A program made the translations under genes and the position numbers. The notes beneath the pieces are model-generated. The model worked only from the letters and a program-made list of their open reading frames with translations, did not search any database and was not told the origin of the DNA. Shown here one piece after another: positions 17,701 to 56,600 of a stretch of DNA of 64,000 nucleotides. This DNA comes from Haliclystus octoradiatus (Eukaryota; Cnidaria; Staurozoa; Stauromedusae; Haliclystidae), in NCBI GenBank assembly GCA_916610825.1, contig OU744446.1, positions 32,654,225 through 32,718,224 on the forward strand. The letters run 5' to 3'. The first letter of the stretch is position 1. Each line of letters opens with the position of its first letter.

Positions 17701-20700
17701 AAATCAAAGCTGTATATAAAGGCCATCTGAACATATCATGTCAATTACAGCTTGTCTTATCATCACACAATGAGGAAGATAGAGTTAGTGTATCGTAAAC
17801 TTGCCAATAATTGAATCAATCGAATCAACGCTTACAAGTCATAAAATTTAGGCATCCCAAAGTAAGCGGGACTTAGGGGCCAGTCAATTTATATTTCGAA
17901 TTCGGGGGTGCAGCAGTCTCAAAGGCATCTACTCTTCCATATTAAAAGCAATTAGTCATGCCCATCCTTGGAAATTCTGTTTGGATTTATGATTTTAATT
18001 TGAAAATTGTATTATTTGTCTTAAATATCAAAATAAATGAAACATATATTAGTGACTGACCTTGCTGTTAAGATCTTCGTGATTTTTAGCAATCGAGGCT
18101 CTCAACATCCAAACGAGTGCATCAACAAGACCATCATAACGACGTAATCGATCACGTGCCTCTGCACCAGCTGATGAAACGTTTCTTAAAACACCCAAAG
18201 CGTTTCTTAGTAAAGGGGAAAACATCAATTCACCAGGGATGCGACCTTCGTCAGCTAGCCTCCTATCCCATCCAGACAATGGCATGATAACAAGCAATGT
18301 GACAATCTCAAATGCTTCATGCAAAACTTCATATTTTATGGTCTGTAAGAAAAAAATTAAATTGATAAATAAGTTATTCAATTATCAAACAAAATAATGA
18401 GCAGCAATACCAATCAGAAGTTTATGCCTCAGTGTGACGATGTGCTGTACAATAGGTCAATATTCCATACGGATGTTAATATATACGTTAAAAAGAAGTA
18501 TATATTAATACTAGCAGATTAGCAGATTAGCAGTTATAATCAAACATCCAACGCAATGGACCCTGTTAAATTAAACTCTGCCGTTGCCTTTCTGTTCGAG
18601 TTTAGAACAATGTACGGGAGTCAAGGTTCAGTGTAAATAATAGCAAAATCAATGTTTTCGTTTTACTTTGGAGCTGATGGAAATCAGAATATCAGCAGTT
18701 GGGGTGGGGTGTGGGGGGTCAATCGTTTCATGCGAGAGAGATGTGTAACGTGAATGCCTTAGTCAACATTCTATCAGCATAAAATAGTAGATCAATGAAA
18801 ACTCAAATGCGAACAATTACTTACAGATGACGAAGACAAGTTATATAGGATACCAGTCACATGTTCACGAACCTACAATACACAAACATTGTCTATATTC
18901 TCCAATGTAATCATTACAAGAATCAAAGGCTGTATATCACGTCTATCAAGAGCATTGCAGCCTTATTTGTATCAGACCTAGCGATGGCATGATTGCAATG
19001 AAATCGGGATTACAGTTCTGTCAAATGATATGAAAATCGTTGAAAAACTGTTATTCAACAGCTAAACTGGTGTTTCTTTGACTTTGAAGAAAAGGAAAAG
19101 GATTCAAATCATTGTAGGAGCTCTCTCATTTAGATATTACATTACAAGGCACTGTATTGATGTACGAGGTTAGGTGCAGTAATAAAAAGAAAACCCTTAA
19201 AAAGTTTGTAGATACGATAGAGTTAAACCTGCAATAACAGTCACAGCTATAGAGCCAACCTGTATAAACTGACCACTTTAGTTAATTGCCACGCCACTTA
19301 ACACGGGAGACATTTCCATAGGCCAAATAAAGATAATTTATTTTTCCGAATCCATTGTTAATGCACGGTTCATGAATAGTTTTCACACACATTTCAGGGA
19401 AATTGGGACATTTAACTTGTCATCATGGACTGTGTTTACAGTGGTACACCTGCGAAAAACTTCACTGAGTTCATGAACAATGCATGAATTTTATTTGTGT
19501 CGGAGCTGATAAAAAGATGAGTTGATCTAAAAATCTTCAATGCCTGTTTTCAGGGTATCATTGAACAATTAAATAAATATACACTGCAGTGAAAGTTGTG
19601 AACGTTGATCTGAAAATTGTTCACAAGCTAACGTGGGTTGTGGGATAGAACTATTAAGAATACATACTTTATTTATTTTATAGCGGTGTGGAAAGTAAAA
19701 AAGTAAAAGTAATACCCACCTCCCATGATCGAGTTGATTGGAGTAATTTGACAGACACTTGGATTCCTTGACATTCTTGAATAGCAGACTATTGAATGAA
19801 GAAAAACCATTGTTATCACCACTTATTCAGTGCACGCCCAATAAGATGGGGATTCCACAATTTAAGTATTGCGCAATCAGGTTAAAATTTATACCAGAAT
19901 GATTGTTGGAATACACTAACACAAGTGCACAACTCTGACGAATACACAGGTGGAATCACCTCGCATTCAATAACTTGCTAGCTGCTGATCGGCTTCCTCG
20001 TAACAACAGAATCTGTGGATGGCAACGTGATGGCATCAGCATCAATAACATTGGATTCGATCAATTACATTACGACGTTCAGCAGCAAAAAGATGTACCA
20101 GATAAATGTTTACCCCACGTTTGTAGCAGAGTGATTTTTTCTTGGCTAGAGAAACCCTGGTATATTGGGTAACTTTCGTATAGCGTAATTCGAATGCCTA
20201 ACAAGTACAAATATCATTATGCTTGGATGGATATCGGGTATAGTAGAATCTCAGCCTAATAACCAAAGGTTTTCATGGAGCTGACATAGTTTATAGGCTA
20301 ATACAGTGTGATCTTGTTGGTAACTTGTGATAATGACCAGATCATGATATATTAACCAATGTGAAATATTCTACTTCTGATAACTGAAACTTGTTCTGAA
20401 ACATTAGTGATATTAACGGTGTTACACTGTAATCACAAAAATACCACTGCAAAAAACAGTTCAGGAGTTCATAAACAGTCCATGAGCGTTATATGGCCCA
20501 TTTTTATGAACTGTTCATGAAATGTTCAGAAACTGCTCATGAAGGTTCATGAACTGTTCATGAACAGTTTGTGAAGAGCTCATGAAAATTGGGGCCATTT
20601 AACGAGTATGAACTGTTCTCGTATGAGTATCTTCAAAAGTTAAGATAAAATTTGATAGTTAAAAAAACTCAGTAGATAGAGTAGCTCAAGCGGAAGGCTA

Positions 20701-23700
20701 CCTTATTATCATCCATGAAACGACCATAAGAGAGGTTTTTTAAAGCACCAGCGGCATTACGATGACAATCTTCGTTTTCATGCTCCATTAAACGGACAAG
20801 AAGTGGAATCATATCAAGTTCCCTGTTGGTCGAACAGAAATAAATATGATCTATCCTTCCATGAAATGTAGATGAGTTGACTAATTATATCCTTTGAAAA
20901 TCTCTAATTAAATTTGTTACCTCATCTTAATTTTGAGATCATCGTTATTGTAGCATAGATGTTGAATGTAGCCGGCAGCATTAGCTTTCAAAATCAAATC
21001 ATCAGTGCGCAAGAACATCAACAAATCAAGTAAATCAAGATCAAGATCTGCAGCAGTCTTACGTTCCTCTGAAAGGCAAACAGATCATGAGAATTAAAAC
21101 CTTTACTAACTTTACAGCCCTAGAAGCAATTGAGCATGTGATAGGCTATTCTACATTAAGGTTGGAAAAACATCACATATGCTCCAAGTTAAGGTTTAAA
21201 TGAAAAATACATCCCGATAAACTTCAAATAAACACCTTCAAGTAGTTGATTAACTTTAATTACTTTAGTTATCATGAGAGTAAACCTGAAATTAGTCCAA
21301 CATTACATTGCATTGAATAATGGTGTGACAGCAACCCCTATCAAAAATTCACTTAGTTCAAAAACCACATAAAATGTTCATCAGCATTAAACGGCCTGTT
21401 TATCACAAAATTCAACCGTTAAAAAGGGGGCAATAATAAGCTCATGCAATGTTTTCATAGGGGAAGTCATTGATAGATGATTTGCTAATTGGTTATACAT
21501 TCCAATTACGAAGACCGGCGACTGCGGTCGGTGCCTCCTAATTCTAAATGGAAACCAGGCTTTAACAGCCTATAACGTTTAATGTTTACAAACCTTCTGA
21601 GTATTGAAATTTCTCTCTCTTTATCATTGATCCGCTGTTATAATCTGTATGAGATGTATTTGCTGATGCCAAAGTGATTTGTTCGTCAACAAAAAATGAA
21701 TCTTCAGCAGCGGCTGCCGCTAAAGCACCAGCTGCAGCAGCACCTCCAGCACTTCCTGCCACAAATGCTCCTTGATTGGAAGAGGCAGCCTTAGATGAAC
21801 TACCTGCTGCATATGATGTATTATAGCTTTCATTGTATACATAATTATTTGACATTCCCTGGGCAGAGGCGCTTGCTGCATTTGAATTATGAGATGCACT
21901 GACATTATGACTACCATTAACTAATTGAGAGCTGCTGTTGCGGTGGCTACCAGCTTGACCAATGTCATACCCACTATTAGCTGACATGTTATTTTGTGCC
22001 TGTTCAACGACAACAGCATCTTCTCTTATGTCACGATTGTGTTGATTATGCATGTCTTTTCTGCGATCAATTGAGGCATATGCATTGGCATTGTAAGCAC
22101 CAGAGGAATGATTTTCTGAATGAGAACCTTGCTTCATTTTAGATCTATCCATTGACTGAGTTGAGTATGCTTTATGGTTGTAAGAGCGCTCATCAACAGC
22201 TGAGCCAGAAGATTTGTAACCGGATGCCTCACGGCGATGCAATGAATCATTGTAGTCATGGTTGCTGACAGCACTTTCAGAAGATGCCGTACTGAGTCCT
22301 CCATCGCGTCCATTGTTTTGTAGTGATTGCTGATTTGATATATGGCGAACCTCTATTCTTGATCCTTCTGTCTCTGGTACATCATCATCTTCATCCAATA
22401 CTCTAGTTGTTGTTGTTACAACCTTTCTGACTAGAACTCTTGAGCCTGTAAAATAAGAATTTAAATTATAGCCTTCCAGGTGAAAAAAGTGAAAGTCAAA
22501 GTTGACTATTATATTGATTGCATTTATCTGAATTTGCACTTATCCAAATTGTGGACTTGACCACAAAACATTTCATAAGGTTTTAATGCTAGGTTGCCGA
22601 TAAGAGGGAGTTGTATAAATTACACTGTATAAATTATAAATATTTAATACTCAAGGCATAGGGGATTCATCTCAATAATAGTATTTATACTTGTTGCTGA
22701 ATCGAAGCGTTTTAGCATATAGTTTTGATAGCTTACCATCAGCGGCAACCCTTTCTTCCTCAGATATCTCAGGAGTTGTATGTTCTAATATAGGCAGACT
22801 TGAATTGGAACTAGGAGTGTGTCTTGGCAAGGTACTAGAGTAGCTACCATTGTGGAAAGAACTTGCTGAGTTTTGATTTTTCGAATACGAACGATCATAT
22901 GTTGCATATTTCTGAGGTATGGCATATTCATCAATGCCGCCATTTGAAGAATTGACCTGATAATGAGGTACAGTTTTAGGTTCATCCGTTATTGTTGTTG
23001 TTTTTGTTGTGTATGTTGTAACAAGAGAACCATCGTTAGCTAGCGATGTTATAACTGATGAATTTGTTTGATTTTGTGGTGGCGGCTCCCTTGCGCTACC
23101 ACGTCCAGATATTGAACTCGAAACAGAAGAAGATCTTGGGGTTAATGTTCTTCGATCTGAAATAAGAGTAAAATAAATAATTCTACACCTGAAACTAATA
23201 TCAATTTCAATGCTATAAAACTGTTTAACTTATGAGGAGATAATTGAATTCAAGCAGAAAACTGAAAAAAACCCTCTGAAAAGTTTGAAGACTGTTCAAA
23301 AAGATGATTAAAAATAGAACATTCAGCATGTAGAAAAGCGTCATCTAGAGTCACTTGATATAGCTAACACCATCATACATTGCTTCCATGTAACGACTAT
23401 AGACAGCAATATTTTATTATAGACACCCCTGAAATGTATTGTAGTATATCACTTGCCTTGTTCAGTCCGGACCCCTGCGAAAAACAGTGGAGGAATTCAT
23501 TAACAGTTCATGAACGTTAAATGGCCCAATTTTCACAGGCATATTCATGAACAAGACATGATAATTGGTTCATTTAGCGGTCATGAACTGTTCATGAACT
23601 CCTGCACTGCTTTTCACAGGGAGATAGATGAAAACACTGCATAATTATTATTATCTCACTCTAAATCATAACCCCTGCGAAAACAGTTCAGGAGTTCATG

Positions 23701-26700
23701 AACAGTTCATGAACAGTTCATGAATGTTAAATGGCCCCAAATTGTCATGAACTGTTCATGAACTGTTCATGAACTGCCTGTGAGGGTTCACAAACAGTTC
23801 ATGAACAGTTCAGGAAAATTGGAGCCATTTAACGTTCATGAACTGTTCATGAACTGTTCATGAACTCCTGAATTGTTTATCGCAGGGGAATTATTAGGAT
23901 CAAATGGTATTTGATACTGCAGAGTTTAATTTTGCTTTGATGTTTACACGTCATACAATTTGATTTATACAGACTATGATGAACATCCTAGTATTATCAA
24001 AATTCAATCAATAGGAAATCCAATTTACCATTTATTCCGCCATTCATGTCAATAACTGCATTATCAATATTGGCATAGTCATCATCATAGCCATTCTGAT
24101 GTTGGTAACCATTTTGAATGACAGATTTGGTTGTTGTTTGCATTGAACTATGATGAGACATTTCTATGAAAAACAAAATACAACACTGATAAAACGTTGG
24201 CAAAAGAAGTAAAGTTGGAACGTTCTAAGGCTCAATTTAAAGATTGAATTTATGAACATTAAAAAACTGCGTTTGAACCGCTAATGAAATGATAATATAG
24301 CGTTGTTCATGAAATGTGCATAAATGGCCTTATGAAGTATTATAGGTGGCCATGGAAAGGTTCATAAACAGTTTACGGTTGAACTCATGACATTTATACA
24401 CAGTGGATATGAATACGTACCGCCTGATATTTGAGATATAGTTACAGTGTAGCCCCGTAAATACCACTAACTGTTAATATTGTGACCCCTTTGGTATTCC
24501 AGAGTAATAATAATTTATGAATGATGCAACCCCTATAAAAAGCAGTTCAGGAGTTCATGAACAGTCCATGAACGTTAATTGGCCCTCAAATTTTGATGAA
24601 CTGTTCATGAGCTCCTGAACTGATTTTCAAAGGGGAATAATAGACTATCTTTGAATTATTCTATTGTACTACAAATTATTATTATTCTGTAAACTGATGT
24701 CTTTGAATTATTTTATTGGATCAGAAATTATTATTACTCTGTCAATTGATTTTGAGACTGATGCCGGATCAAGTCTGCCTACAAAATTTCCAGGTGCACC
24801 ATGACAGTGATATTATAAAAGGTAAAGTGACATAGTATAAATTTCATGGATTGCTTTAAAAAATAGCCATGGCAACTCATATGATGTGTGTTATATTTGC
24901 ATAATTAATACAAATCAACCAACTTACCATTATCTTTTATACCACCGCCAATGTAGTTGGTCCTTCAATAATAACAACATAATCTTGATTAATTATAAAG
25001 CCTACTCAAAGATGTTCTGTCTGCAAATCATATGTGCACAGGTCACGAACATCAAGTGGACCCATTTTCACAAAGTTTTCATGGAAATCAAGCGATCCAA
25101 TATTCATTAAATTGTTATGAGCTGCTGATCAAGTGTGTGATGATCGCTATATGGCATTAAACTTGTAGTAGCATTTTTTATTCATTCCATTTATTTATTA
25201 AAACTTTGATTTCCATGACTGTACCTACACAAGTTTGCGGCACATTTGTTCAACGGAAATATTCTTCAATAATATGATTTAGGTGAATGAAATGCTCAAC
25301 ATATCGGACTTCGGACCTGTCAAATACTTCAGAACCCGGGTTAACTGAGCCGTGCACAATGCAATTAGTATTATTTTTGTATCAAAACGAGAAAATCTAA
25401 AACTCTCACTTGCAATAATTCTGCTGGAGAAATAGTGATACGAATTTGTGAATATGTCATAACTGAGGTCAACAAAACGTATCATTGAGGATGTTACTAA
25501 TATCAGTTGGAGAAGCTGCTTTTAGAATTCAATATTTCAATGTTTTAAGCTGTAGGCCTACATTACAATTTAGTTGGATTATTTACATAAAGGTAAGATA
25601 AATATTATGATCTCTTGAAAAATCTTGAGAACGCAAATTTGAGCTCTTATTACCTTAGTTCTCATTATTATAGCTTGATAATAGCCTAGATATATAGGTT
25701 AGCTTACGTCTAGGCTAACTTGCCTGATAGTCGCTGTATGGCATGAAACTCGAACTAACATTTTTGATTCATTTTATTTATTTATTGAAGCTCTGATCTA
25801 AGTTATCATTGAGCAATACCCTGGGAAAAACAGTTCAGGAGTTCATGAACTGTTCATGAACGCCACATGGCCAAATTTTGATAAACCTTCATGGACAAAT
25901 CATGAAAAATTTCTTGAAAATTGGGCCATTTAACGTTCATGAACTAGTTCATAAACTGTCCATAAACTGTTCATGAATTTCTGAGCTGTTTTTTTGCAGG
26001 GATGTGGCCTTACACATGTGCAGACAACTTCATCTTACAATTTATCCATGCATAACATATAGAGGTTAACTTAAATATAACCATACCCTTGATTGGAAAA
26101 TCCTCTCTCTTCTAGAACTTTCCTAAAAATAAAATTAGGAACAGCATAATTATAAAAGAATATGTCATCAGCTGGCCATACACAAACCGATTAAAATAGA
26201 AATTGCAAATTGTGACATGTAATTATCAATTGCACTTACAAGCAAGAATCCACGAGGGCACCAGATTGATCTTTTTCGTCATCGATGGCATTATTATTCT
26301 GTGCACGCCAGATAAAATCATCACCAGAACTAAGGAAACAGAAATAATGAAACACATTCAGAGGGAGAATTAGCTCAGAATGATGGCAGAGAAACTGAAC
26401 TTCTGATCTGATCATCTCTGATCGACTGCGGTTCAAATCCCCCGAAGGTCAACTTAGCCTTGATGTTACTGTTATCTAAAGCATCAAATGAGTGCTATCT
26501 AAGGATGGCGGATGGAACGTTCCAGAGGGAGTAGCATTGACAGTTGAGGCCCATCTTCTATGAAATCTGTTGAAGTTGATCTACAGTGTCGCGGCTGAGC
26601 TCAATAAAGAGCATTTAACATTGACTATTCCTCTCAGTTAGAAGTCACTTCCCTAGAAATAGAGGAGTAGTACGGGTGCCTTTGGCAGGGCGATACTACC

Positions 26701-31194: not shown

Positions 31195-31335
31195 CTGATG
31201 AACTTGTGCGCTTGATGTATTTGACGTTGTTACAAAATTAGTACTTTGTTGATAACTTGATGATGACTTTGTTGCTCTTTTATAGCTATTATTATTATTG
31301 TGGTTATAAGCTCCACCAAAGTGATCAACTTCCAT
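31195..31335 (-). CDS. CTNND: Alternative distal first exon of delta-catenin
   Basis: ATG at 31335 opens 47 codons (MEVDHFGGAYNHNNNNSYKR to SSAQVHQ) and ends at a GTGAGA donor in phase 0. That phase fits the coiled-coil exon at 28839, which is also entered in phase 0 by the exon 29134-29042. Use of this exon would give a 1281-residue form with a Ser/Asn/Gln-rich N-terminus in place of MYLVDRGYDTHRDE. Vertebrate p120 is known to use alternative starts. Splicing into an acceptor just before the proximal ATG is less likely, because no pyrimidine tract is there. Confidence 0.7.
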
Positions 31336-32850: not shown

Positions 32851-32855
32851 ATTAC

Positions 32856-33178: not shown

Positions 33179-33254
33179 GATGAATTAACGAATTAAAATC
33201 ACAGCATAGTTATCTACAATAAATTTCTGACCTAAATCTTTCCTATATTACAAT

Positions 33255-39850: not shown

Positions 39851-39855
39851 GATAA

Positions 39856-40443
39856 TTATGATCGGCGTCCAAGAAGTGTGAAATACCTGGTAAAACAGAG
39901 CTTGTTTGGACGAATTTTTTCTCTGAAATAAGACTTTATGGCTATGCCGTTTTTCAGTTTTTGCTGTGCAGGGCTTGATGTAATCTGTGCAACTTTCCTG
40001 TCTCTGCAGTATGTTCTGAGCTCTTGACTGCCAAATTGTGGTCCATTGTCACTTATCAATTGTTCTGGTATGCCATAATCAAAGAACAATTTATTCAGTG
40101 CTGTTTTGACATCATTTGTTTTGGTTTGGTTTAATTGAGTAACGCATGTCCATTTGGAATAGAGCTTTACTGCCAGTAGGTAGTGTTTTGTATCTAATTC
40201 AAAGAGACCTGCGGACATAGTTTGAAAGGGGTATTCAGGAATCGGGTATGGATGAAGATTTTCTTTAGCATTTGCATTTCTGTGTTGTTGGCATATTCCA
40301 CAGGCTTCTACAGTGTCCCTGATCTGGGCTGCGTAACCGGACCAATATAACGCAGACTTTGCTGCTTCCAAGCATTTCGAAAAGCCCATGTGACCATTGT
40401 GGATTTCTTTCAATGTTGACTGAATCATAGATGTTGGTACCAC
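39856..40443 (-). pseudogene. Gypsy integrase, N-terminal and core part, inactive
   Basis: The zinc-binding region (IHNGHMGFSKCLEAAKSALY, then CGICQQH) precedes the core. The first catalytic Asp, normally in a DLFE-type motif, reads GLFELD; the second Asp is present in SDNGPQF; the Glu position reads Ile in KNGIAIKSY. With two of three catalytic residues lost it cannot be active. It overlaps in content with the piece at 35349-36009. Confidence 0.8.
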
Positions 40444-40505
40444 AAATTGCTCATTTCTGAAAAGTAGGTTATTGAAGACACATAAGTTGTCCTTCTCTCT
40501 CCAAA

Positions 40506-40914
40506 ATGGTTTACAGAATTGGGAATTCTATTCTACTTCTCTGGTCATCCATTCTCTACGAACTTGATAGTAGTTTGGAGGGTTGGATCATCCTTGGTAT
40601 AGCCTGCTTTGCATCTTCTTGCTTGCCAGGTGCTATCACATCACAAATACGGATTTCTGCATCCGTGTCATCCTTGTATAAAGTGTCTTCGAATGCCCTT
40701 GAAATTGTGTCTGCTAAAACGTTTGAAACATTCAAATAAAGGGGTCCAGACACAGTCTCAATGATCCATCAGGTTTTGTGACCAACACGATTGGATATAC
40801 CCAAGCTGTTGGCTCTGTGACTTTAGCAGTCATGCTTTTGTTTTCCATTTTATCCAACGTTTCTATAAGCATGATCCTGAGACGAAATGGTACACGTATT
40901 GCTGCATGGAGCAC
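40506..40914 (-). pseudogene. Gypsy reverse transcriptase start fused to the integrase linker
   Basis: The RT finger motif (VLVTKPDGSLRLCLDP) breaks off around 40740 and is joined within a few bases to NVSNVLADTISRAFEDTLY, which normally follows RNase H. The palm with its YVDD box and all of RNase H are missing: an internal deletion. Confidence 0.75.
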
Positions 40915-42499: not shown

Positions 42500-42529
42500 T
42501 TAATTGTTGTATGAAATTATAGATATTAT

Positions 42530-42660: not shown

Positions 42661-43528
42661 ATGATTGGTTGAATGGTATGATTGATGATATTGCCTCCAG
42701 ACTTTAAAACATTGGATTGTGCGCCAAAACGAGAAACGCTTTCTGAGGTTAAAAAGACATGGTAGCAAAAATATATGGAATATTTTTGTAAACAAAATTG
42801 GAAAATCTCCATTCCATTTTCATCTTTGAATTTTGGCAGAATTATTTTAATGTTATTAACTACCAATTGGTCGATCTCTATCGTATTATTGCTCGATAAT
42901 TATTGTTCAGTATCCTATCGGTGTTTCGCACTGAAATGTATTTATAATTTATCTCTGTCGTGACTCTGACTGTCACTGACGTGACATTTTGTAGTCTGCG
43001 AGTTTGCGGATGCGCACGGCCGCCGCAACAGTCTGCCAGTGGGCATTGAGTAGACCTACCTAAATGACTCAAGAGTCTAGACATACATATGACAGATCAG
43101 ATTCGCATCTACTCGGCTCAAATAATAATTGGTTGGCCCAAGTTTAAAATGGTAAGTCGAAGCTTCAGATCATGGAGATAGCAACACATTTTGACAATAT
43201 ATGAAGTTAAGTTGTTTCTTTTTCTTTTCTTGTTTGTTAAGTGAACTGATTGAGTTGACTTCACCAAAGCTTTAATAAGTTGTATGATATGAGTAAACTC
43301 TTTACTCACTTAACACATAATTAATAATAATAAATTTTACTTATTAACTTTGAAATAAATTAGCCTATAGTGATGTAAGATTGTTAGACCTATAGGGTCG
43401 GAACTTGGAAGGAGGATACAGAAACACACAGTATATTAAACTGTAACTAAGATATAAAACACGTGTATTCTATACGACAATCAGCCAGCAAAAGTGTGTA
43501 ACAACCATAGACTTAGGCTACATAGACC

Positions 43529-44062
43529 GGTAAGGGTAAACTACCAAGCTGCAAACTCTTGCAAATTTACCAACCAAGCCCAAAATGACGAGATGGTCTT
43601 CTTATCTAGACCATTGACTTGTCAATCTGAAAGACTTCCAACCCCGTCTCAATGATTCTGCTAGGTCACATTGTTATTATCTTTGATGAATCTCACTGTG
43701 TTGGAAATCGTGCCAAGAAAATGCGAAAAATGGAATTTTAATTGGTGTGAACAACCCACCTTTCAGAAAGCACTGACTTTGTTATATACTATACCATGGA
43801 GTTATAGAAACTACATTCGAAAGAAAAAGTCGGAGTCATCATTTTCGCTTCAGCACAACTAAAAAGAAATCTTCACCATATTAATCCAACGCACTGAGAT
43901 TCATTAAAAATTATAACACAGTGAGCAGGCAGCATCATTGAGACGGGGGCCGAAACTCTATCAGATTGCCAAGTCAATGGTCCAGACAAGAAAACCATTT
44001 CGTCCTTTTGGGCTTGGTTGGTAAGTTTTCAAGAGTTTGCAGTTTGGTATTTTACCCTTACC
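43529..44062. repeat. Long inverted repeat (about 137-bp arms)
   Basis: The left arm 43529-43666 (GGTAAGGGTAAACTACCAAG to GTCTCAATGATTCTGC) is mirrored by 43926-44062 with about 85 percent match over its whole length. The spacer is about 260 bp and carries no recognisable gene. It could be a foldback transposon or an inverted duplication; no clear target duplication is visible. Confidence 0.8.
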
Positions 44063-45479
44063 ATAGAAAATACGCAACATGGGGAACAAAGATTGCTGGT
44101 GCAAAGGACTTATTTTAGCGTTCTCCTCATTGACATTTTAAAAATTATTTGATCTCTCCTATAGACTCTTTTGCAATCTAAACTCTAATCAATATGTTCT
44201 CACGGCCATAGAAGATAGTTTAAATAGGATATTCCTGCCAGCGAAGTGAGATTTGTTCATAGGATCACAATTATTTTCAAACATTTATGAATAATTTAAA
44301 ATCACACCGACAGACAAAGAACTATAAAAATTAAAAAAAAATCCCATTTAACTTCAGATATGATTAAAAAGTAGACATTTTAACTCATTATTGATGCAAC
44401 TTGAAATTGGTAGTCATAAATAGCTATTTTATCAATAAAAAATCTGTTTCATTCAGAAACAAAAATTGCTCAAAACGCGGCTTAAAATTTTGTGGTTTTC
44501 AAGCCTCTGTTTTGGTCCTTTGCGTCAGCCATCATGGATGCCCAAGGTCGCCATGCGTTTTCCGCGAAGTTTGGCAATGAAATCAGCAGTCTATGTAAGT
44601 CTATGGTAACAACAACCATGCAAAATGTATATAGCAATTACGAATCACATGACAATACGAAGCACGGATCATAACACTTTACTAATTATCACACAGCATC
44701 GCATCATCCGCATTCACCCAAACAATACAATCACATGAACAACCTAAAATATCACATGACATCAATAAATTCAACACATCCTAAACACAACATTTCACAC
44801 ACACATACATATATATAGGCCTATATATATAACTGAGACCAGGAAGACTTATTAAAATAGACGATATAACTAAATCCTACATGTGATAATTAGAATGTAA
44901 AGAGACAGTATGTAGGCTACCAATGTTTTGTTATTTCTTTGATCACATCTTGAGGTGAGAGATTGAAAATCACAAAATATATGTATATTTTTAAACTAAT
45001 TACATGTAATATAAATTAAATATGGCATTAAATTCACAGGCATCAATAGCACAAATTGTCAGCAGTTAGACGAAAAGTCAGGATTTTACAGAATATAGTT
45101 GGGTATTGTTATTGACTACACTTGATGTGCCGAATCGCAAGTATTTTGTGAATCAGGCAATCAAAAAAATGCATGCTTATTTTAATAAAATTACTATGGT
45201 GTTCTCAAACACTATATATGCCTACCATTAGAATTGCGAAAAAGTGATGAAACGGTCGATCCGCTATGTCAGTTGCTACGTTGAAATGTTAGAGGTGGAA
45301 AATGAAGCCAACATAACATGCACCACACCAGTCACATTCAACACAATGAACACATTGTAAACAATAGACAACGCCTCTGACAAGAAAAGATTTGTGGCTG
45401 AAGTACACACAGTCGCCAATCACCAACAAACTTTTCGCTGCTAAAAATCAGTCTTTATACTTGGCCAATAATACCATTG
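44063..45479. other. Intergenic, no clear feature
   Basis: AT-rich spacer upstream of the F-box gene. One TAGGCCTA octamer sits at 44816 in a TATATA context. A 60-codon open frame near 44492 shows no family character. Confidence 0.4.
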
Positions 45480-45720
45480 AAAACTGTTCATGAACATTAA
45501 ATTGCCCAATTTGTAGGAACCCATTGAACAGTTTAACATTAGCTTTCAATGAAAGAAGTTCATAAAAATTTGGCCATCCATGTTCATGAAGTGTTCATGA
45601 ACTGTTTATGTAGTTTTCATTAAGTGTTCATGAACCATTCATTAAGTGTTTATCAACTGTCCATGAACTAATTTATAAAGTGTTCATTAACAGTTAATGA
45701 ACTAACCAACTTTTTTCAGC
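45480..45720. repeat. Degraded TTCATGAA foldback element, copy f
   Basis: At least ten variants of GTTCATGAAC in both orientations (CTGTTCATGAACATTAA, TGTTCATGAAGTGTTCATG, GTGTTCATTAACAGTTAATG). The ends and palindrome are eroded. It lies upstream of the F-box gene. Confidence 0.65.
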
Positions 45721-46339
45721 CACTGTACCACTTAAATTTGATAACTGCTTAGTTTGTGGATTGGCTAATAATGTCATTTTCACTTCTGCTTGCGACTGGT
45801 AAATCAAGCATACCCTCTAGACAATTCTTCCTAAATTTGATGAAATAAAATTATATTAATGACTTGGAGTTGATTAGTTAATTTGTAACTTTTGATTTTC
45901 ACTATTTTACCTCAAGTTGTTTCCAAGAAGATAATGAAATGACTGTGCATTATTCACCTTAAGATCAAGACAATGCCTTTGGCGTATATTTGTTTCCTAT
46001 TCTTTATCACACCATTTACACTCTGTTACTATCTAACATTGAGCGCGATCATATGCAATTATGCATACATGTGTATCCGATTTTACGCTAAATATAACAA
46101 TTTTTTCAAATTACCAGTATTATTATTATTATAAGGGGTTTGTTGTATTGAATGATAGTGAAGAAAAAGTGAAAAAAAGTTGTATGCAACAAAAACGCTA
46201 GCATCCATTCTACATTTTTATTTCAATTGATGGTGTGCTGTATTTATTGATAATCTCTTTCATATTCAAATGTAGACAATCTAATTCAAGTCTAATTCTA
46301 TATTTGGAACTCAAATACATAAGTGGTAAACCTCTTATA

Positions 46340-46640
46340 ATTGTTACAGTGGAACCCGTATATAACGGCCAGCTACGAGAGGTAGATAAATTGACCACTA
46401 TAGACAGGTGGCCTTTATATACAGGTTCAATTCAATAGAAAATACTATTTCAGACATTGCAAAGGTGACCCCTATAGACATGTAGCCGCTGTACAGAGGT
46501 GACCGTTGTAACAGGTTTGACTGTACCTCTATACATCGACCACCTGTATATAGTGGTCACGCTGTGTATGTCTAACATAACATTTTTTATTGAATCAACC
46601 TTCTAAATAAGGGCCACCTGCAGATAGTGGTCAATTTATA
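46340..46640. repeat. Decayed repeat with GGTGACC/GGTCAC words
   Basis: CAGTGGAACCCGTATATAAC near the left, CAGGTTTGACTGTACCTC and then GACCACCTGTATATAGTGG further on. Related scraps occur near 19240, 48180 and 57240 (AGTCAAACG, ACCTCTATACA). Probably a DNA-transposon-derived repeat whose full form is not in the window. Confidence 0.55.
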
Positions 46641-46836
46641 TCAGTCATGTGAAAAAAGCTTGTAGCTTATCAAGTTTTCTTAATATGTTGATGATGATGA
46701 TGACACTTTTGTTGGCTTTTTGTTTCTAGGTATAAGATATTTAAAGAAATTGAGTATATGAAGAAAGGATATTCTCTATAATTTACGCTGTATCATACTA
46801 TCATTTGAAATTTCAGTACACAAAGCGTTTGAAGCC

Positions 46837-49800
46837 ATGGGTATAGACAAGGAAATTACTTCCGATGATAAACCTAATTCCACCACCTCAAATACATACA
46901 ATTTTCATGATCATTGTGTGAAATGTTTCAAATTTTTAAAATGCGAAGAAACACAATGCCCAATTAATCATTGCCAGTTCAACTGTGGTCTGATTCTTCA
47001 TTCATGTAAACAAGATGAACATAATTTAATTTGCATTAAAAAACCAACCAATTGTATCAATGCTTTTCACGGCTGTTTGTATATTGGCTCAAGGATATCT
47101 ATGTTAACTCATTTGAAAGTATGTCCTGCGTCAATTGTACGATGTGGAAGAACATGGAATAGATTACCATTGTACTCAAAGGTATGTGATGCAAACAACT
47201 CGGTTTATTGAGAGATGATAAAATTTCATTAAACATTAAACTTTAAACTCCAAGGACGAATGGGGAAATTTGAAAAATCCAAAACAAAGATTCGATCAAA
47301 TGTCGAACCTTCAATATAATACAAAAAAAAAAAAATTTGTTCTACTAAAAAGAAACTTTAAATTATCACTGAAAAAGCTACCGCAGGGCAGCGAAAATAT
47401 TATGATATAAATTTAAATATATATTATCTAATCACACTGTTGGTATAGTTGTTTCGTGTTATTTAGAATGGTTACCAAGTTACCCAACTACAGTTTATCG
47501 TACAAAACACGAGATCATATAAAGGTTTTAATAAATCAATTAAGTCAGTATAAATTAAATTTCAAAGTTATGTATATCATAGGCTACTAAAGACAGCTTA
47601 GAAGTCAAAGATAAGGTGTTGTCTATGAGTAATGGAGATAAGGTTTAAGCTATCTTTGACTTGACTTTGCTGCTGCTCTATACACCAGCATCAAGAACTC
47701 TTATTGGTGTTCTGTCACCAATAAAATGATATAATACTAATAGATAGATAAGCAGATAATAATTTATTTAAAGGCTTATAAATAATTTGATAACTTGTGC
47801 CTATATTAGGCCTACATCTATCAAGATATTACAGCGTAATTGTTATTCCAATTTAAAATAGTTGTTTCTTGATGCCTGGCGTCTGTGAGGTAGACACATG
47901 TAACTGTATGATACTTTGATCTTAGATTTGGGTTGTGTTAATATTTCACTGGTTTCTTCCTTATATTATTTTTACTGTAATAATCTTAGTGGCCGTATTT
48001 GTTGATCAGTTTGGCACCTAGGAAAGAGAATGAACATTTTTCCTAATATCCTTATAGAATACTGGAAGAATAATTAATAGCTTATAATTGATGAATTTAT
48101 TGATAAATTGTGCATTTGTAGGGATTGAGACATTATTTTCTGCAACAACGTTATAGAATTCTAATATAGGCTAGTCAAACCTGTTATAATTGTTACCTCT
48201 ATACATCGACCCCCTGTATATAGTGGCCACTCTTGGTATGTCTAAAATAATATCAATTATTAAATCTACCCTTTCAGTTGACATTGGCCTCGGCCTGCAA
48301 GGTCTTGGTTTCAATCCCAGATAGAAGCACTATCGCTTGGCGCCAGGGCTTGCCTGATATTGGGTTTGAGGTAATATGATAAATCCCCCAAAACTTCAAT
48401 ATAATATAACATTGATTAATTCAATTTTCTTTTTGTAGTCACGCAGTAATTCAGCCCTTTTCAAGCAACCCAATCCTCCTGTTACATACAATGACATTTC
48501 AATGCGACTAGCTCACCATGACCAACAGCAAGTTATTGAACGTTACAAACAACTGCTAGCAAAAGGAAAGAAGAATTTGGCAAAACGAGAGGGTCATAGT
48601 CAACTCAGCCAGCAGTCAATTGATTTACTAAAGCAACTGTTAGATGGTAACTCTATTGATGGTGAACCAACAAAGTTATCAAAACAACTTCATGGTTCTG
48701 TTGATTTTGATTCAATGCCATTTTTCAATCAAGAAGAAGCAACTGATGATTATCTATCACAGGCTGAGAGAGCTGTCAATGGAATAGAGCCGTTTCCTGG
48801 AGAGTATAACTCGTCTTGTAACCTAAACACAAGTACATTTTGGCCAGTTATAATTGGCTTGAAAATTGATATTGAATGGCTGTCACCCTTCAACCAGAGA
48901 GAAAGCTCTTATAGATTTGAATGTGGTCATATAATGCGAAGAGATCAATTTAGTCATCATGCTAAAATGATACATGACATTGTTGATGGCTATCTAGAGG
49001 GATGGCTGATTCATCGTTGTCCACTGTCACAGTATGGTTGTGGATTTTCTGAAGAAAGGTTATGCCCTTCCTCCCCTCTGTCAAAATTTATTTTCTCTGA
49101 TACAAATGGTTGTATTAGTCTTACTTCAAATCAACAGGTCATTGGTAAACGTAATCCGAGAAGTATCTTCTGTCTTCCTGAGATAGTACTCCAATTGATA
49201 TTTAGTAAACTTGATAATCACTCTTTTCGAAATCTCTCACTTACAAGTAGAAAAATGAGAATGATTTGTGAAGAATTGGTTTACACAAATGGAGTTGTGG
49301 AAGGTAAATGGGAGAAAAAAATTTATGAAAACAATCGCTTTTCATGGCAGATTACAAAAAAGGTTAGTGTTTATGACAAAGGCCTAATTAATTGACATTC
49401 TTTTTGTCTGCGTTAGATTGACTATGATCAAACACTGAACATGAACTGTTTCCTGCGAACGTTGGAAATTTTAAATTCATGAACTAGTTTTACAGGATAG
49501 TTTTGATACTTCCTATGTCAACAACAGTTAATGAGTTTATGAAAAGTTCATGAACGTTAAATGGCCCCAATTTTTCATGAACTGTTCATGAACTGTGCCC
49601 ATGAGAGAACATGACGATTGGGTCATTTAATGTTCATAGCTGTTCATGAACTGTTCATGAACTCCTGTACTGTTTTTCTTAGGGGCCACAACAAAATGTG
49701 TTTGAAATCTTATCAATCAGGTTGATGACTGGTTACAAAAGAACAAATAGGGTTTCGAAACCTGGCATGAATTAAGCGTGGATTTCACTTATCCTAATTA

Positions 49801-50689
49801 TACTTATGCCTGCTCCAGTGCAGTGTATAGAAAGCATATGTATGTAAACATACACATTGTTGTAAAAATTTAACAATTGCCCGGGCGTGGATTGTAAGGC
49901 GTGCAATCGCACGCACACGCCTCCGTGTGTGCCTGAACACTCCAACAAGTTTTTTAAAAAATGTTTAAAAAAAAAAAACATTCTGAATGATTTATTTATT
50001 ATTTTGTTATTATTTATTATTCATTAAACTTCAATTTGCTATAATGATTCTTATTCAACTTGCTGGACAATTATTTGAACAAAGACATAACAAAGATTTG
50101 TGTTGCCATGACAACAATAACCACGACGCATGATATCATGACAACAATCATTTGATGGTGTGAGATAACACATTTTGATTATTTTAGGCGTGCGTTTTAT
50201 AGCACCCGTGTCATCTGTATAATACAAACCGTTCATTGCCGCCTTTAGCATTACGTTGAATTTCTTCATAACTATGTAATTATTGATTAATAAGAACATA
50301 ATAATGATGCAACACTGTAAGTATCAAATCAACTTAGCATGTAGCCTGCTTGTAAATTTACTGTTTACAAATTTACATTTGACAGTGAGTCTGCGAGCAG
50401 GCTACTCAGTATGTTGTTCTCAATAACATCAATTACCGTTTTTATGCATTTCTTCTGGACTTGACATTCCCCATGCATACATGATAATTGGAATGTTTAT
50501 GTCATCTGCAATGTGTTTGTGTTGTTATAGGTTTGGTATTATACAACATCGTTTGCTTCAAATGATAAATTAGACTGGAACAATAGATTATCAAGTCAAC
50601 ATTCATTAGGTGAACATCTTAAAAATTGTCCATTCTTACAACCAAATATCAGAACTGAGCCTGTTAAATTAATAAATATGTTGAAATAA
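46837..50689 (+). CDS. FBXO30: FBXO30/FBXO40-type F-box protein with TRAF zinc finger
   Basis: Exons 46837-47181, 48439-49362 and 50531-50689, all joined in phase 0, give 475 residues. The N-terminus has the family's Cys-rich zinc-finger region (HCVKCFKFLKC, CGLILHSCKQDEHNLIC, HLKVCPASIVRCGRTWNR), matching the HSCK.DEH...C and CPASV.C..EWNRWP pattern of FBXO30. Residues about 357-400 form the F-box (SIFCLPEIVLQLIFSKLD), followed by the family C-terminus (GVVEGKWEKK, then HSLGEHLKNCPF). Such proteins are substrate receptors of SCF (SKP1-CUL1) ubiquitin ligases. The start ATG lies 19 bases after an acceptor-like TTTCAG, so a 5' noncoding exon is likely. It is shorter than vertebrate FBXO30/40 (about 710-745), mainly in the middle. 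Which paralogue it corresponds to cannot be decided. Confidence 0.9.
47182..48438 (+). other. First intron of the F-box gene
   Basis: 1.26 kb. It holds a TAGGCCTA octamer at 47807, a short copy of the GACC..CTGTATATAGTGGCCAC repeat at about 48175-48245, and GGTTTCAATCCCAG near 48310, which resembles a B box but has no partner. Confidence 0.45.
49426..49685. repeat. TTCATGAA foldback element, copy g, in an F-box gene intron
   Basis: GTTCATGAACGTTAAATGGC, then the mirrored arm with GGTCATTTAATGTTCAT and CTCCTGTACTGTTTTTCTTA at the right end. An eroded extra piece precedes it from about 49426. It lies 60 bases after the second coding exon. Confidence 0.75.
49686..50530 (+). other. Second intron of the F-box gene, remaining part
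   Basis: It contains a GC-rich patch near 49880-49935 (CGTGCAATCGCACGCACACG), a hairpin at 50341-50405 (GTAGCCTGCTT paired with AGCAGGCTAC), and an 82-codon minus-strand frame at 50051-50299 with paired Cys (CCHDIM, YCCHGN) that I cannot assign. Confidence 0.4.
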
Positions 50690-50875
50690 ATGAAGAACAG
50701 CAACCCTAGCAAATGGCAAGCATAGTTATTGAATGGTGGATCACACAGATTTCAGATGAGATATGTAATCTCGGAACAACACAATTCTTTAGATTTGTGA
50801 ACATTGCTCTCATTCCATAAAATACATGTCCATAAAATACATGTCCACAAAATACATTAATTTGTAGAGTTATCA

Positions 50876-51365
50876 TCCCCTGTAGAAAATATTTACGGAG
50901 TTCATGGGAACATTGACAGTTCAGTAAATGGTTTATTTTTCACTTTCCATTTAACATTCATGAACTGTTTTCACAGTAGTTGTGAGGTCCTGAATTGTAA
51001 TTTGCTTGTATAATTTTAAATTTCCAGTTGATTTTTTATTTATTTGCTACCATTTTATGACGTTCATTAAAATTTCTATGAAAAGAGAACATGCTGCATT
51101 ACGTTTCTACATTTCTATCAACCCTTGTAGAAAATATTTATGGAGTAGATGAACATTGGACAGTTTAGTAAATGGCCTGTTTGTCACTTGCCATTTAACA
51201 TTCATGAACTGTTTTCACAGTAGTTGTGAATTCCTGAATTGTAATTTGCTTGTATAATTTTAAATTTCCAGTTTGTATTTTATTTAGTTGCTATTATTTT
51301 ATAACGTTCAGTAAAATTTCTATCAAAAGAGCACATGCTGCATTACTTTTCTACATTTCTATCAT
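50876..51365. repeat. Direct tandem duplication, period about 245 bp
   Basis: Two head-to-tail units, from TGTAGAAAATATTTACGGAG (50881) and TGTAGAAAATATTTATGGAG (51126), each containing CATTTAACATTCATGAACTG and ending in CATTTCTATCA. Both carry a decayed TTCATGAA element, so the duplication followed insertion. It lies just downstream of the F-box gene. Confidence 0.8.
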
Positions 51366-52250
51366 GTTTATCTTTTTTTCTACATTTCTATTTCTATTTT
51401 GGGTGGCCCTATGCTTATTATGCCAATAAGTAATTATGCTCCAAGCTTTCCCGATTAAGCCCCTTTTAAACCGTTTGAATGTTATTTTCATTCCTTAACC
51501 GTCTGTTTGAAGTTCTACAGTTGCAGTCAAAGCTGCTTTAGGCTAAGTTTACACTATGGTTTACACGAGAGCAAAAACCCGGGTTTTCAAAAGTCTTTCA
51601 AAAGTGCACTTTCAAAAAGTTCTGATAGGGTATCAGTTACACAAGGCTATACTTTTCTAGTTTGTCTAAATAAAACGCTGTAACTCAATTATTTCTTATT
51701 GGTGTTTCGTTGAAATTGGATTTTTATAAATCTTCGATTCTGTGGCTTCAGATTGATATGTTTTTTTTTATTTAAATCATTCAAAACGACTTTTTTATTC
51801 ATATCTAATTAAAGTCCACATGAATTTACACTGCTTTTGTAAATAATATGTTTAATTCACGGTTTTATCTTGTATAAACAATTTCATTGGATAGTTTTAC
51901 TAAACTATAGTATTTTCTTCTAAACCAGGGCCTAGTGGTTGCCAATATTTATAGGCCGTATTGCCACGAAATGAAAGTGGACTTTTGCATTTATAAAACA
52001 GAACTACCCTGGTTTTGCAAAATCTGGTTTGAGAAACCCGGATTTCCTATCCTTACTCTCAAAAGTCCTGATAGGGTCGCTAAGCGGACTAGTTTCCTCT
52101 TGGGTTTCCTGTTTACGTCTAGATTAAAATTCACCCGGGTTTTGTAAATCCATTTGTCGTGTAAACACAGCCTTAGGTTTCAGCTCTATATTTCATAGCA
52201 GAAAGCTGACAAAATTGCACAACTGGACAGCCTGTTACTTATTTCCATTC
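51366..52250. other. Intergenic between F-box gene and APH1, no gene
   Basis: No coding features recognised. The sequence near 51545-51600 (GGTTTACACGAGAGCAAAAACCCGGG) and that near 52110-52170 (CCCGGGTTTTGTAAATCC then GTGTAAACACAGCC) look like eroded ends of one inverted-repeat element of about 620 bp. Confidence 0.4.
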
Positions 52251-52380
52251 CCCTGCAAAAAAATTTGTTGAGTTCATGAACTGTTCATGAACACGTTATT
52301 AACATTTCGTGAAGGTCTAATAGCCTGCTTTTCATAACATGTTTCAAGAACCGTTCATAGACTGCTTTCACAGAGGCTGT
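52250..52380. repeat. Eroded TTCATGAA foldback element, copy h
   Basis: CCCCTGCAAAAAAATTTGTT with GAGTTCATGAACTGTTCATG at the left and ACTGCTTTCACAGAGG at the right. The middle is diverged. Confidence 0.65.
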
Positions 52381-52450
52381 AACATTGAACAAACATTATT
52401 GATATCATGAGCTGAACAAACATTTTTGCAGGACTATATAAGTTCAAGGG

Positions 52451-52567
52451 TTATGGCGCACTCCAGTAATTTCAGAAAACTCGAAGGCACAAATAACTCT
52501 CTGCGGCAGCTTGTGACTTTCTGATGCCCTCTAGATTTCTCCTAGCATGTCCTCTTGTGTGCCATAA
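52451..52567. repeat. Diverged second copy of the hairpin at 457-639
   Basis: TTATGGCGCACTCCAGTAAT at the left is matched by a mirrored TGTGCCATAA at the right, with the shared words AGAAAACTCGAAGGC and GATGCCCTCTAGATTTCTCC in the interior. Confidence 0.6.
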
Positions 52568-53072
52568 GCTATGGCTCATAGGAAACTATATGCTAATTGC
52601 TTATTAGTTACTTATTACTATTAGTTATTACTTATTATTTTATTCTTATTATTTGTTTATTATTAATTCATAGCTGGTTTACTGTTTAGCCTACTTGAAT
52701 AGAAGATCACCCTTTAGGTCTCTCTCCATCAAGGTCTCTCGATGCCTGGGTTATTATGCATATTTCTAACGACACAATGAAGACACAATACATTAATGGT
52801 TTTTATTCAGTTAGTCGGCCTACAGATATCACTTATTATAACAATACAGTACCACCACAATACACCGAAAGAGTGGCAATGTTATGCATTATATTATTCA
52901 ACATTGAATTTAATAAACATAACGTTTACATATTTTTACTTAATTTTGAATATGAAATTATAATAAATTTTGTATCTAAACCATACAGTCTCTATGCAGA
53001 CATCATTCTCTTTTATAATACACATTACACAATATATCCAGCAGCTCAGTAAAAGTGTAAGGGTTAGTGCAT

Positions 53073-53278
53073 CCCCTGCGAAAACAGTTCAGGAGTTCAT
53101 GAACAGTTCATGAACAGTTCATGAACGTTAAATAGCCTCAAATTTTCATGAACTGTTCATGAACTGTCTGTGAGGGTTCATGAACAGTTCAGGAACAGTT
53201 CAGGAAAATTGGAGCCATTTAACATTCATAAACTGTTCATGAACTGTTCATGAACTCCTGAACTGTTTTTCGCAGGGG
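53073..53278. repeat. TTCATGAA foldback element, copy i (best preserved)
   Basis: CCCCTGCGAAAACAGTTCAG to CTGTTTTTCGCAGGGG, 206 bp. The left half and the reverse complement of the right half match at nearly every base. Each arm carries three TTCATGAA-type units spaced 11 bp and a GTTAAATRGCC block. It lies between the F-box and APH1 genes. Confidence 0.88.
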
Positions 53279-53330
53279 ATCAAGCTGATTTAGATATTTT
53301 TGCTTTTAAGTATAATTGAATCAGCAAGCA

Positions 53331-53514
53331 CAGTGTAACCCATTTAAGTGCGGCTCAGATAAGTGAATTCCCGCTTATCTGAAACCTGGCTTTGAAACCC
53401 TATAAAGTAATTTGTGGCCAAGTCCTTGTTAATTAATTTTAGATAACTGAAAATTCGGATAAATGCAATGGAAGCCCTTTACAATTTTGACTTGCACTTA
53501 AGTGAGCTACACTG
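53331..53514. mobile_element. Small DNA element with CAGTGTA ends
   Basis: CAGTGTAACCCATTTAAGTG at the left is mirrored by CACTTAAGTGAGCTACACTG at the right. No coding capacity at 184 bp. A reverse copy lies near 22500-22630. The target duplication is unclear. Confidence 0.65.
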
Positions 53515-53610
53515 TACTTCTCCGATACAGTCAATAAATGTGTCTCGCACTAGTGACTAATTAGTATGCACACTGAAAATAAATTAAAAATACTTATTTC
53601 ATTGCTGTTC

Positions 53611-56600
53611 TTATGATGACTGTTCTGGTCTAGTGAATAAAGATTCTTTCAGATTTTGAAACGAACCACCAACAACTCGAAATGCCCAAAATGCCATAAA
53701 CGTTAATGTTACATAACCAACTGCCAATGGTGCGATAAAAACTCCTTTACTGTTTAGTAAAGTCTACAAAGAAGAAATGTACAAACAATTCATGCAATAA
53801 ATATTTGAAGATTATGATAAAAATTTAACGAAACAATTGAGAATAAGAACAATTAATAGTTATCAATCAAAGATGAGGTAGACATTGGTTGATAATGATC
53901 AAGGTTATTATGTCAATATCTTTGTTACAAATGTATTTTTTTCGGGTTAGATAATATCATAGACTTCATAGACTGCCAATCTGTGATGTCACATGCATCC
54001 ACCATGGGGAGTCAAAATATGCAAGATGACTGACAATTACAACTGAGCGTGCGTTTTTACAGCTCTCTTGTCAATCCTTCTTCTCTTTGAGTGGCATAGA
54101 ATTTATTTGTTTTTAAGTAAATATTCTCAAGTTTGTTTTTCAATGTTTTTCAATTTCAACATATAAACATCATCTTTACTCACGCAACTGCTGAGACAGA
54201 AATTTTAGATTTTCACAAGGCGACACTTGTCTAGTGCAGTGTCAGCAAAATGGCTTTATGAGGTCCGCTACGCAGACTTAACAATTTCTTTAAAAATGTT
54301 TTTGTTGCACGCAGGCTAACATCACTACAAATCTTGAAACACTGAAATCTTACCCAAAAACTTAATGAATAGGGTACAATTCAGACTCTAGTAGCTTAAA
54401 ATACTTAATGTGCAGTTAAGTACATTTAATTTTTTCAGTGGAATCAAAAGAATCTAGGTTGAAGCTTCTGGTGATGTTTATGTTTTAAGTACCAAGTTTT
54501 CAGTAGCAATTCAAAGACACATAGTTTATCTTGGCAAGCAAATGTCTTACAGTACACTTCTTCTTACTGTACTAATTTTCTAGATACAAGTATAATCTGT
54601 TACAATCATAGTGGAAGCCATACATTCAAATGCATCACTTTGAAGTACAAATTTTCAGTACAAGCTATCATCCAATTGACTTTTAAATGCCACTGTAATA
54701 TTTCTAAAATAGTTACCTTATAGACATTGAAATTATTCAAAAATACTTAAAGCCCATATCCTAATATATTTTTGAACTCAAATTTTGAACTTATGATTTT
54801 TTTACTCATTAGAACAATAAAATCGAGAATGCAATTCAACTTTCAAACTTTCATTTTTTTTGTACCAGTCTAGTGTTCATGAGCACTTTAATGAACGTTC
54901 GTAAAGTTGATGAACAGTTCATGAACAGTTTTTCACAGGAAAATATATTTTTGATTGTGCATACCATTAGTGAAACAAGCAAATGAGAACCAACAACAGC
55001 TACAATGTTAATCCACTTTCCTCTTTCCATACCATCAAAGAAAAGAATTCCCCAAAACGTATTAAGAAGTATCAAGCAATTGGTAAGGAAAGCTAAAATG
55101 AAAACAAATCTGACAAATAATTAAAACTTTCACACATCAATGATAGATTTGTGTTATATTTATCATAATCGTCCTTAATGCAGAAACATTACATAAGATT
55201 ACATGGAGTCTTGGAAGGCCTACATAAAATCAAAAGGTTTCAAGTTGCTACGTTGGCAGGGTCCGGCAAAAGGTTCAGCCTTCTGGAATCCTAGAGGCAT
55301 TTCAACATTTTCTTCTGAATTTTTTGTTGATGTTTGACCAATAAATCATTAAAAATATCAATTTTCTTCTGAATTTTGTCTAGCCTTCCGGGATCTAGGA
55401 TCCCAGGATCCCCACTTTTGAAGGACCCTGTATGTTGGATTTCATTTTCAAGATTAGCCTATTTTCGATTTCAATTTTATTTTAACTCTGATTGTTAGTT
55501 TTAGGCTTCAATTCTTCAAATTCAAATATGAAAACAATTGCTCTGAATTTCGAAATGCTCAGTTATTTCGAAAATAAAATTTTGCTGGTTAAATAATTTT
55601 GTAACACACTGTTTCTTCAGATATAGCTTACCTGTAATTAGTACAAAATGTTGATGATCACCATACAATCCAATAGTACCTGGCCCAGTGATATCAGCTA
55701 ATACGTTAACCATAGCAAATAAACCACTCATGCAGCCAAACCCTAAGCCAGCCACTGAAAAATCAAATTCGAAAGTTGGATGGAATTTATGAATAGATGA
55801 ATAGATACTTATAGTGTGCTTCTTCCCTGTCAAAATTGACATTGAACATAGCCTACTATATTGGACATTTTGCACATTGTCATCTTAAATCTATTTTCTT
55901 TCATATTTCACCTCGTGTCTGCTCGAGTCCAGCATCGCTGTATAGTACAGACATAAGAAAATCAAAGTAAAAATAGACTGAAAATAGACTGAAACTTTGA
56001 ATAAGGACTTAACATGGACTGAAAAACTATTCAGAGTTAATAATTTAGACAGAAAAAGACTGAACAATTTCACGTATGATAGTATGAGTATTACCATTGA
56101 ATGTTGAAATTGACCGATCCTAGTGCACCAAAAAAAGTACATAACAATTTCTAGATTTTAGCTAAATGAGAAATTTTATAGATTACTTACCATAATGATA
56201 TCGATATTTTCTTAATGGAGAGTTACTTTGTGTAATTGTAAGCAAACCCTCTTCGGCTTTCCTGCAAACACAGATGCACAAGGACAAGAATAAAAAATCT
56301 AGTTGTAAGGTCAAACATTTAATAAAGATTCTACAGAAGCATTAACATCTTAATTCACATTCTTCTCATTTAAACTCAATTTTGAAATTTTATCTCTTGT
56401 TTAATGTTGCCCTTTACTTGTGTCCATCCATCCATCCATCCTATCGTCATCATTATCATCAATCATTAGTATCATTACATATTTAGCTTTCAAGTCCATG
56501 TTAGAAATTTTTTATCCAAATGGTAATCATATTATAATAAGAGACAAAGATGAGGCAAAGCCTTTTTCCGTTACTCGGAGTTTCACAAGTTTAATTGTGA

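Follow-up and report, generated by a model that had tools for sequence, protein, structure and literature searches.

A dispersed foldback element family with a 2-bp target duplication in Haliclystus octoradiatus

We analyzed a 64,000-nucleotide stretch of chromosome 1 (C1) of the staurozoan Haliclystus octoradiatus (hereafter the window: positions 32654225-32718224 of 39,977,743 bp) that carries short foldback elements built from 11-bp units. These elements form a dispersed family with precise ends and a 2-bp target duplication, and they inserted into sites that were once empty. The copies are very probably non-autonomous, non-coding foldback miniature inverted-repeat transposable elements (MITEs) that are moved in trans by cut-and-paste. 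We infer the cut-and-paste enzyme: a DDE transposase encoded elsewhere would cut at the CCCC/GGGG ends and would insert the element into the target at a 2-bp stagger, mildly favoring dinucleotides rich in A and T. The 11-bp arrays may serve as subterminal binding repeats for this transposase.

The family adds a large set of elements to a little-studied animal class, the Staurozoa, and its relaxed 2-bp duplication is unusually clear. Neither the end nor the unit strings had a text match in the papers searched, and no title or abstract opening under the topics ISL2EU, foldback MITE, Staurozoa, and cnidarian foldback was on this family.

Abundance and anatomy of the family

We searched 261,861,806 bases in 33 contigs (the assembly has 33 scaffolds according to PMC9975415). 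Throughout, the control was the reversed (not complemented) pattern, window, or set of sequences. The exact 19-bp end occurs 1,233 times genome-wide (649 + 584), and its reversal does not occur. If up to three mismatches are allowed, there are 8,584 ends (4,330 + 4,254) and 16 reversed ones (7 + 9). Similarly, a two-unit 22-mer with at most one mismatch has 16,337 overlapping matches genome-wide (8,154 + 8,183) and none when reversed. As a rough estimate, which assumes Poisson mismatches and ignores indels, there are about 10,000 ends or about 5,000 copies, and a typical 19-bp end has roughly two mismatches, a divergence of about 11%. The dispersed family is real and has thousands of copies.

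To describe the copies, we fetched loci around foldback ends (L001-L068), which contain 85 of the 1,233 exact ends. These loci were drawn from the first 100 exact ends listed, every one of them on chromosome 1, so the sample is biased to one chromosome and to ends that are well preserved. The fuzzy search also overlooks some ends. Each copy consists of two facing CCCCTGCGAAAAACAGTTC ends with palindromic 11-bp units (GTTCATGAACA) between them, and longer copies add a GTTAAATGGCC block. The convergent termini of the family are CCCCTGCGAAAA and TTTTCGCAGGGG, with CCCC at the start and GGGG at the other side. Adjacent end pairs are 55-250 bp long, plus one of 545 bp. The shortest copies, of 55 bp, are two ends flanking a single unit; this shrinkage to 55 bp is new here, and it makes the minimum substrate of the transposase directly testable.

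In the window and L001-L068 together, cores like TTCATGAA (at most one mismatch) are spaced 11 bp apart 405 times, and the next commonest spacings are 27, 26, 21, and 22 bp. The reversed sequences contain eight neighboring core pairs within 60 bp, none of them at 11 bp. The 11-bp architecture that was described in an initial annotation of this DNA is thus borne out, and so are its near-perfect palindromes over 206-217 bp. Specifically, the copy at 53073-53278 (206 bp) folds into a single long hairpin of −136.2 kcal/mol (z = −19.3) and the copy at 23672-23888 (217 bp) into one of −158.4 kcal/mol (z = −24.2); for either copy, 0 of 200 shuffles were as stable. More broadly, the mean identity of a copy to its own reverse complement is 0.815, as compared to 0.606 for shuffled copies (61 copies). 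If intronic copies are transcribed, they would be long double-stranded RNA hairpins and a possible source of small RNAs.

The two arms of a copy may be slightly more alike than arms of different copies (0.726 versus a permutation mean of 0.692; 9 of 300 permutations reached 0.726), although the 29 copies in this comparison (150 bp or longer) include L105 and L110-L112, which are repeats of one insertion. Total lengths are clumped, with peaks at periods of 9.25, 10, and 11.5 bp; 4 of 1,000 jittered sets matched the strongest of these, at 11.5 bp. In one copy (L018, 75-619), the inner block is present in about six repeats. The arrays may vary in length through slippage or through copying of the hairpin. 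Not every pair of ends is a single copy: by eye, the long pairs in L009 and L012 each break up into at least two copies, separate or truncated, with other sequence in the gaps. L016 also has a long end pair, at 601-2415.

Target duplication and empty sites

Among 64 loosely defined adjacent convergent pairs of ends, 45 are flanked by a perfect 2-bp duplication, versus 8.2 under shuffled pairing (the largest of 1,000 shuffles was 17), and none are flanked by a 3-bp duplication. Leaving out L110-L112, which repeat the L105 insertion, gives 45 of 61. Under a strict definition of pairs, the 2-bp duplication is present in 27 of 35 (5.1 under shuffled pairing) and a 3-bp one in 0 of 35. The sequence of the duplication is relaxed: the 45 perfect duplications are AT (11), TA (9), AA (7), TG (5), TT (4), CA (2), AG (2), CT (2), GC (1), GA (1), and AC (1). 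The dinucleotides beside 128 distinct ends are TA (29), AT (25), AA (18), TT (17), TG (9), and others (30). A target duplication of exactly 2 bp and of relaxed sequence is well supported and is new here; it sharpens the earlier suggestion of "at most" 2 bp.

We also compared the joined flanks of 61 copies to all of the fetched sequence, and we followed up three copies. Among the matches listed, two copies have clear paralogous empty sites, as is expected if the copies are insertions, and a third (L048) is matched weakly at two places, with 69 and 72% identity. For the 56-bp copy at L040 (601-656), 9 of the 15 listed paralogous matches are gapless once one TG is removed. For the copy at L054 (424-619), all three matches read CGCT-NN-CG (or CC). 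The filled site is CGCTCT[element]CTCGG, which makes CT the duplication and implies that one base was lost from the left end. Each of these copies has an empty site in the window:

46345..46454, paralogous empty site for L040 (601-656), inside a different dispersed repeat
11454..11544, paralogous empty site for L054 (424-619), inside a different dispersed repeat

The repeats around these sites are families of their own. The stretch at 46386-46639 is a separate imperfect inverted repeat (115-nt arms, 76%) and belongs to a dispersed family around TGACCACTATAGACAGGTGG, a relative of which hosts the L040 copy. The stretches at 9347-9430 and 11454-11544 belong to yet another dispersed repeat, and the L054 copy sits in one of its relatives.

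Several observations weigh against our view that the copies are MITEs moved in trans. First, 19 of the 64 pairs do not have a perfect 2-bp duplication; these include a copy nested in L105 (TT on one side and CA on the other) and L110-L112. Second, the other 6 of the 15 matches to the L040 flanks (L093, L094, L097, L098, L102, and L107, all of them DDE_Tnp_4 loci) are short by two bases at the junction. Third, the empty-site candidates are from among the matches listed, so more may exist. Fourth, total copy length shows no 11-bp ladder, that is, no peak at 11.0 bp. Finally, in the 41 transposase loci that we read (11 with PF02992 matches and 30 with PF13359 matches), no transposase element has the foldback ends as its own termini, so the search that the initial annotation proposed, for a transposase with the same ends, came up empty in these loci.

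Copies in the window

Using paired copies from other loci as queries (blastn, E up to 1e-6), we identified 12 merged stretches in the window, totaling 1,913 bp; the reversed window had none. Because the stretch at 23472-23888 contains two copies, there are about 13 copies in 12 stretches:

53073..53278, full foldback copy of 206 bp, with ends CCCCTGCGAAAACAG and CTGTTTTTCGCAGGGG and an AT duplication (53071-53072 and 53279-53280)
23672..23888, full foldback copy of 217 bp, with an AA duplication (23670-23671 and 23889-23890, by eye); blastn
23472..23622, foldback copy of about 151 bp, with the last base of its right end changed and a GA duplication (23470-23471 and 23623-23624, by eye); blastn
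24530..24635, foldback copy of 106 bp, with decayed ends and an AA duplication (by eye); blastn
25818..26001, foldback copy with ends ACCCTGGG and TTTGCAGGG and AT at either flank (by eye); blastn
20444..20621, foldback copy whose right end has decayed, lying at the first coordinate of the initial annotation; blastn
49512..49685, foldback copy with a decayed left end and no visible duplication; blastn
52250..52404, partial copy with left end CCCCTGCAAAAA; blastn
45481..45718, degenerate copy; blastn
51190..51249, fragment; blastn
54875..54941, fragment, with a blastn match at 54875-54930 and a degenerate right end extending to 54941
19357..19416, fragment; blastn
19449..19493, fragment with an end remnant (CCTGCGAAAAAC); blastn

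Many of these copies are decayed or truncated. Only about seven ends are recognizable in the window, so the earlier claim of shared ends in ten or more copies goes too far: four ends have up to three substitutions (left ends at 20444, 23472, and 25818 and a right end at 53278), and an indel-tolerant search adds those at 23672, 53073, and 54941. The copies do lie within the range 20443..54945, as reported, but the fragments at 19357-19493 fall beyond it.

Which transposase moves the copies?

In the 41 transposase loci, the end-like matches are a nested copy (in L103 and in L105) and, in L100, a single match that looks like chance. Duplication length alone makes the CACTA/Mirage/Chapaev (CMC) superfamily the best candidate. 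According to PMC4482050, CMC duplications are 2-4 bp. The genome has 36 matches to PF02992 (CACTA-type), and over 0.3-3.5 kb the identity between copies is about 98-99.7%; CACTA elements have thus probably moved recently. Maize Spm carries subterminal motif arrays as binding repeats, which is another point of likeness. On the other hand, CMC ends begin with CAC, and the foldback ends begin with CCCC. Also, the end CCCCTGCGAAAAACAG was absent within 1.5 kb of 10 of 10 PF02992 loci and from the 4 kb around an eleventh (L109); the 11 of 36 matches that were read span about 3-4 kb per locus, which is short for large elements, and none of them linked these ends to a tnp2-type transposase. It is a real possibility, if somewhat short of an even chance, that a CACTA-like transposase specifically mobilizes the copies, with CCCC in place of CAC as a divergence of this lineage.

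An unlikely reading is that the transposase belongs to a lineage outside the described superfamilies. Such an enzyme, of the DDE type, would act on CCCC/GGGG ends with a relaxed 2-bp stagger, and its tandem 11-bp palindromic binding sites would be free to vary in number, down to elements of 55 bp. The arrays would then also be direct repeats of a half-site, with 2-bp (DR2) or 5-bp (DR5) spacing, at thousands of sites, some of them intronic, that a dimeric host factor could use. Should an autonomous partner prove to have an unfamiliar transposase, the set of animal transposon superfamilies would grow.

We also considered whether the copies derive from the abundant ISL2EU/Harbinger (PHIS) transposons of this genome. 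We scored 150 DDE_Tnp_4 matches of 414 candidates and read 30 of these loci, with about 1.5 kb on each side. Twelve loci on five contigs (L080-L091), about 99.9% identical, have the same 525-amino-acid open frame; another locus (L092) is at 98.0%. In L082 (322-3507), a single open frame has Pfam matches to THAP, HTH_Tnp_4, and DDE_Tnp_4. Judging from these near-identical frames, L080-L091 are probably an ISL2EU-like transposon that was recently active. ISL2EU duplications are 2 bp long, as in our copies, but according to PMC4482050 they are AT, with ends mostly starting in GG, and those of Harbinger are TWA. In contrast, 34 of our 45 perfect duplications are not AT, and our ends start with CCCC. 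In the seven copies of the L080-L091 family that we read, the shared sequence starts with ATAGAGCGTTTTCCCC instead of CCCCTGCG. This difference led us to disfavor the one ISL2EU-like family with a readable start as the source. By eye, and for exact ends only, chromosome 1 up to 26.6 Mb has no DDE_Tnp_4 match that is flanked by convergent ends within 15 kb. Overall, a PHIS origin is improbable.

Foldback copies are present within DDE_Tnp_4 lineages. A degenerate copy lies inside the lineage L081-L092 (for example, L082:2600-2810), and a better-kept copy lies inside a second lineage (L105:2214-2381, L110, L111, L112, and partly L103). We read these as hitchhikers that multiplied with their carrier. 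The nested copy in L105 did not yield an empty site: L110-L112 also carry the copy, L103 carries part of it, and L108 and L113 differ in their 3' part.

The initial annotation had doubted that the family would fit a common superfamily, and the duplications justify this doubt. TA, the Tc1/mariner target, accounts for 9 of the 45 perfect duplications; AT, as in ISL2EU, accounts for 11 of 45; and the 3-bp TWA of PIF/Harbinger was seen in 0 of 64 pairs. CMC fits in length and not in its first letters.

Likeness to other repeats

The copies resemble MITEs in being short and non-coding, with precise terminal inverted repeats, a fixed duplication, and thousands of ends. They differ in that the inverted repeat spans nearly the whole copy and is built from arrays of units, and no autonomous partner was found in the loci read. 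They do have the long inverted repeats made of subrepeats that define the foldback class. The Drosophila FB and sea urchin TU elements, to which we liken them by description only, also have long inverted repeats of short subrepeats and arms of variable length, but their duplications are 8-9 bp instead of 2 bp.

The initial annotation had suggested that the arrays could bind a dimeric factor, and the motif class that they resemble is that of DR2/DR5 half-site repeats, which nuclear receptors bind. On this reading, the arrays would be response elements, scattered through the genome, for a dimeric factor of the host. The end region contains AGTTCA-GG-AGTTCA (DR2) and the arrays contain AGTTCA-TGAAC-AGTTCA (DR5). 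Among RGKTCA direct repeats on both strands of the window, there are 17 DR5, 6 DR2, and 1 DR7; spacings 0, 1, 3, 4, 6, and 8 are absent, and the reversed window has none. All 17 DR5 and all 6 DR2 lie inside copies. L001-L068 contain 111 DR2 and 196 DR5, with 0-6 at other spacings (reversed: one each of DR0, DR5, and DR8), and L069-L109 contain 2 DR5 and no others (reversed: 2 DR7). However, the sequences of the end and the unit by themselves produce AGTTCA repeats at 2- and 5-bp spacing. We searched for direct repeats only once the unit was known, which makes a chance match to some motif likely. We consider this explanation very improbable.

With approximate queries (the DNA-binding domains of human RARA and RXR), we saw no ortholog of the retinoic acid receptor (RAR). 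Each query had eight genome matches; the top identity to RARA was 62%, and the best-scoring RXR match was 63% identical over 73 residues. With no ortholog seen among these matches, we disfavored a role for this receptor. Across the whole genome, either query gives eight nuclear-receptor DNA-binding domain matches, of which seven are near full-length in one frame. Alu is a primate short interspersed element (SINE), and the copies here are DNA-transposon-like and cnidarian. What the two share is the spread of RGKTCA direct repeats by a repeat family: according to PMC1785376, DR1-DR5 of RGKTCA are receptor sites and Alu drove the spread of DR2 in primates.

Heat-shock elements were another candidate that we rejected. 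Three-unit elements occur at three sites on the plus strand of the window (0 reversed), and a single one of them, at 20541, is inside a copy. As for the TTCnnGAA pair itself, it occurs 78 times, versus 22 times reversed.

Finally, the repeated inner block of L018 and the variable numbers of units might suggest a satellite or tandem repeat that spread by slippage, but precise ends and 2-bp duplications make this hardly credible, and the empty sites led us to reject spread without transposition.

Neighboring genes and other repeats

An armadillo repeat is present in one exon (16975-17487, minus strand; Pfam), and the exon at 18049-18381 has no Pfam match. By eye, from the open frames, this armadillo-repeat gene appears to be delta-catenin. 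Five copies had been assigned to its introns; by eye, those at 20444-20621 and 23472-23888 appear intronic, and those at 24530 and 25818 appear to lie upstream of the first exon. Copies had also been placed near F-box and APH1 genes, and indeed 48439-49395 has a Pfam F-box match and two exons of the window match Aph-1.

The window contains other repeats as well. Of the open frames at 39856-40527 and 58342-59184, one has Integrase_H2C2 and rve and the other has a reverse-transcriptase match under the Pfam cut-off; by their predicted domains, both are putative retroelement remains. There is also an inverted repeat at 43529-44062, with arms of 117 nt that are 87% complementary and lie 300 nt apart.

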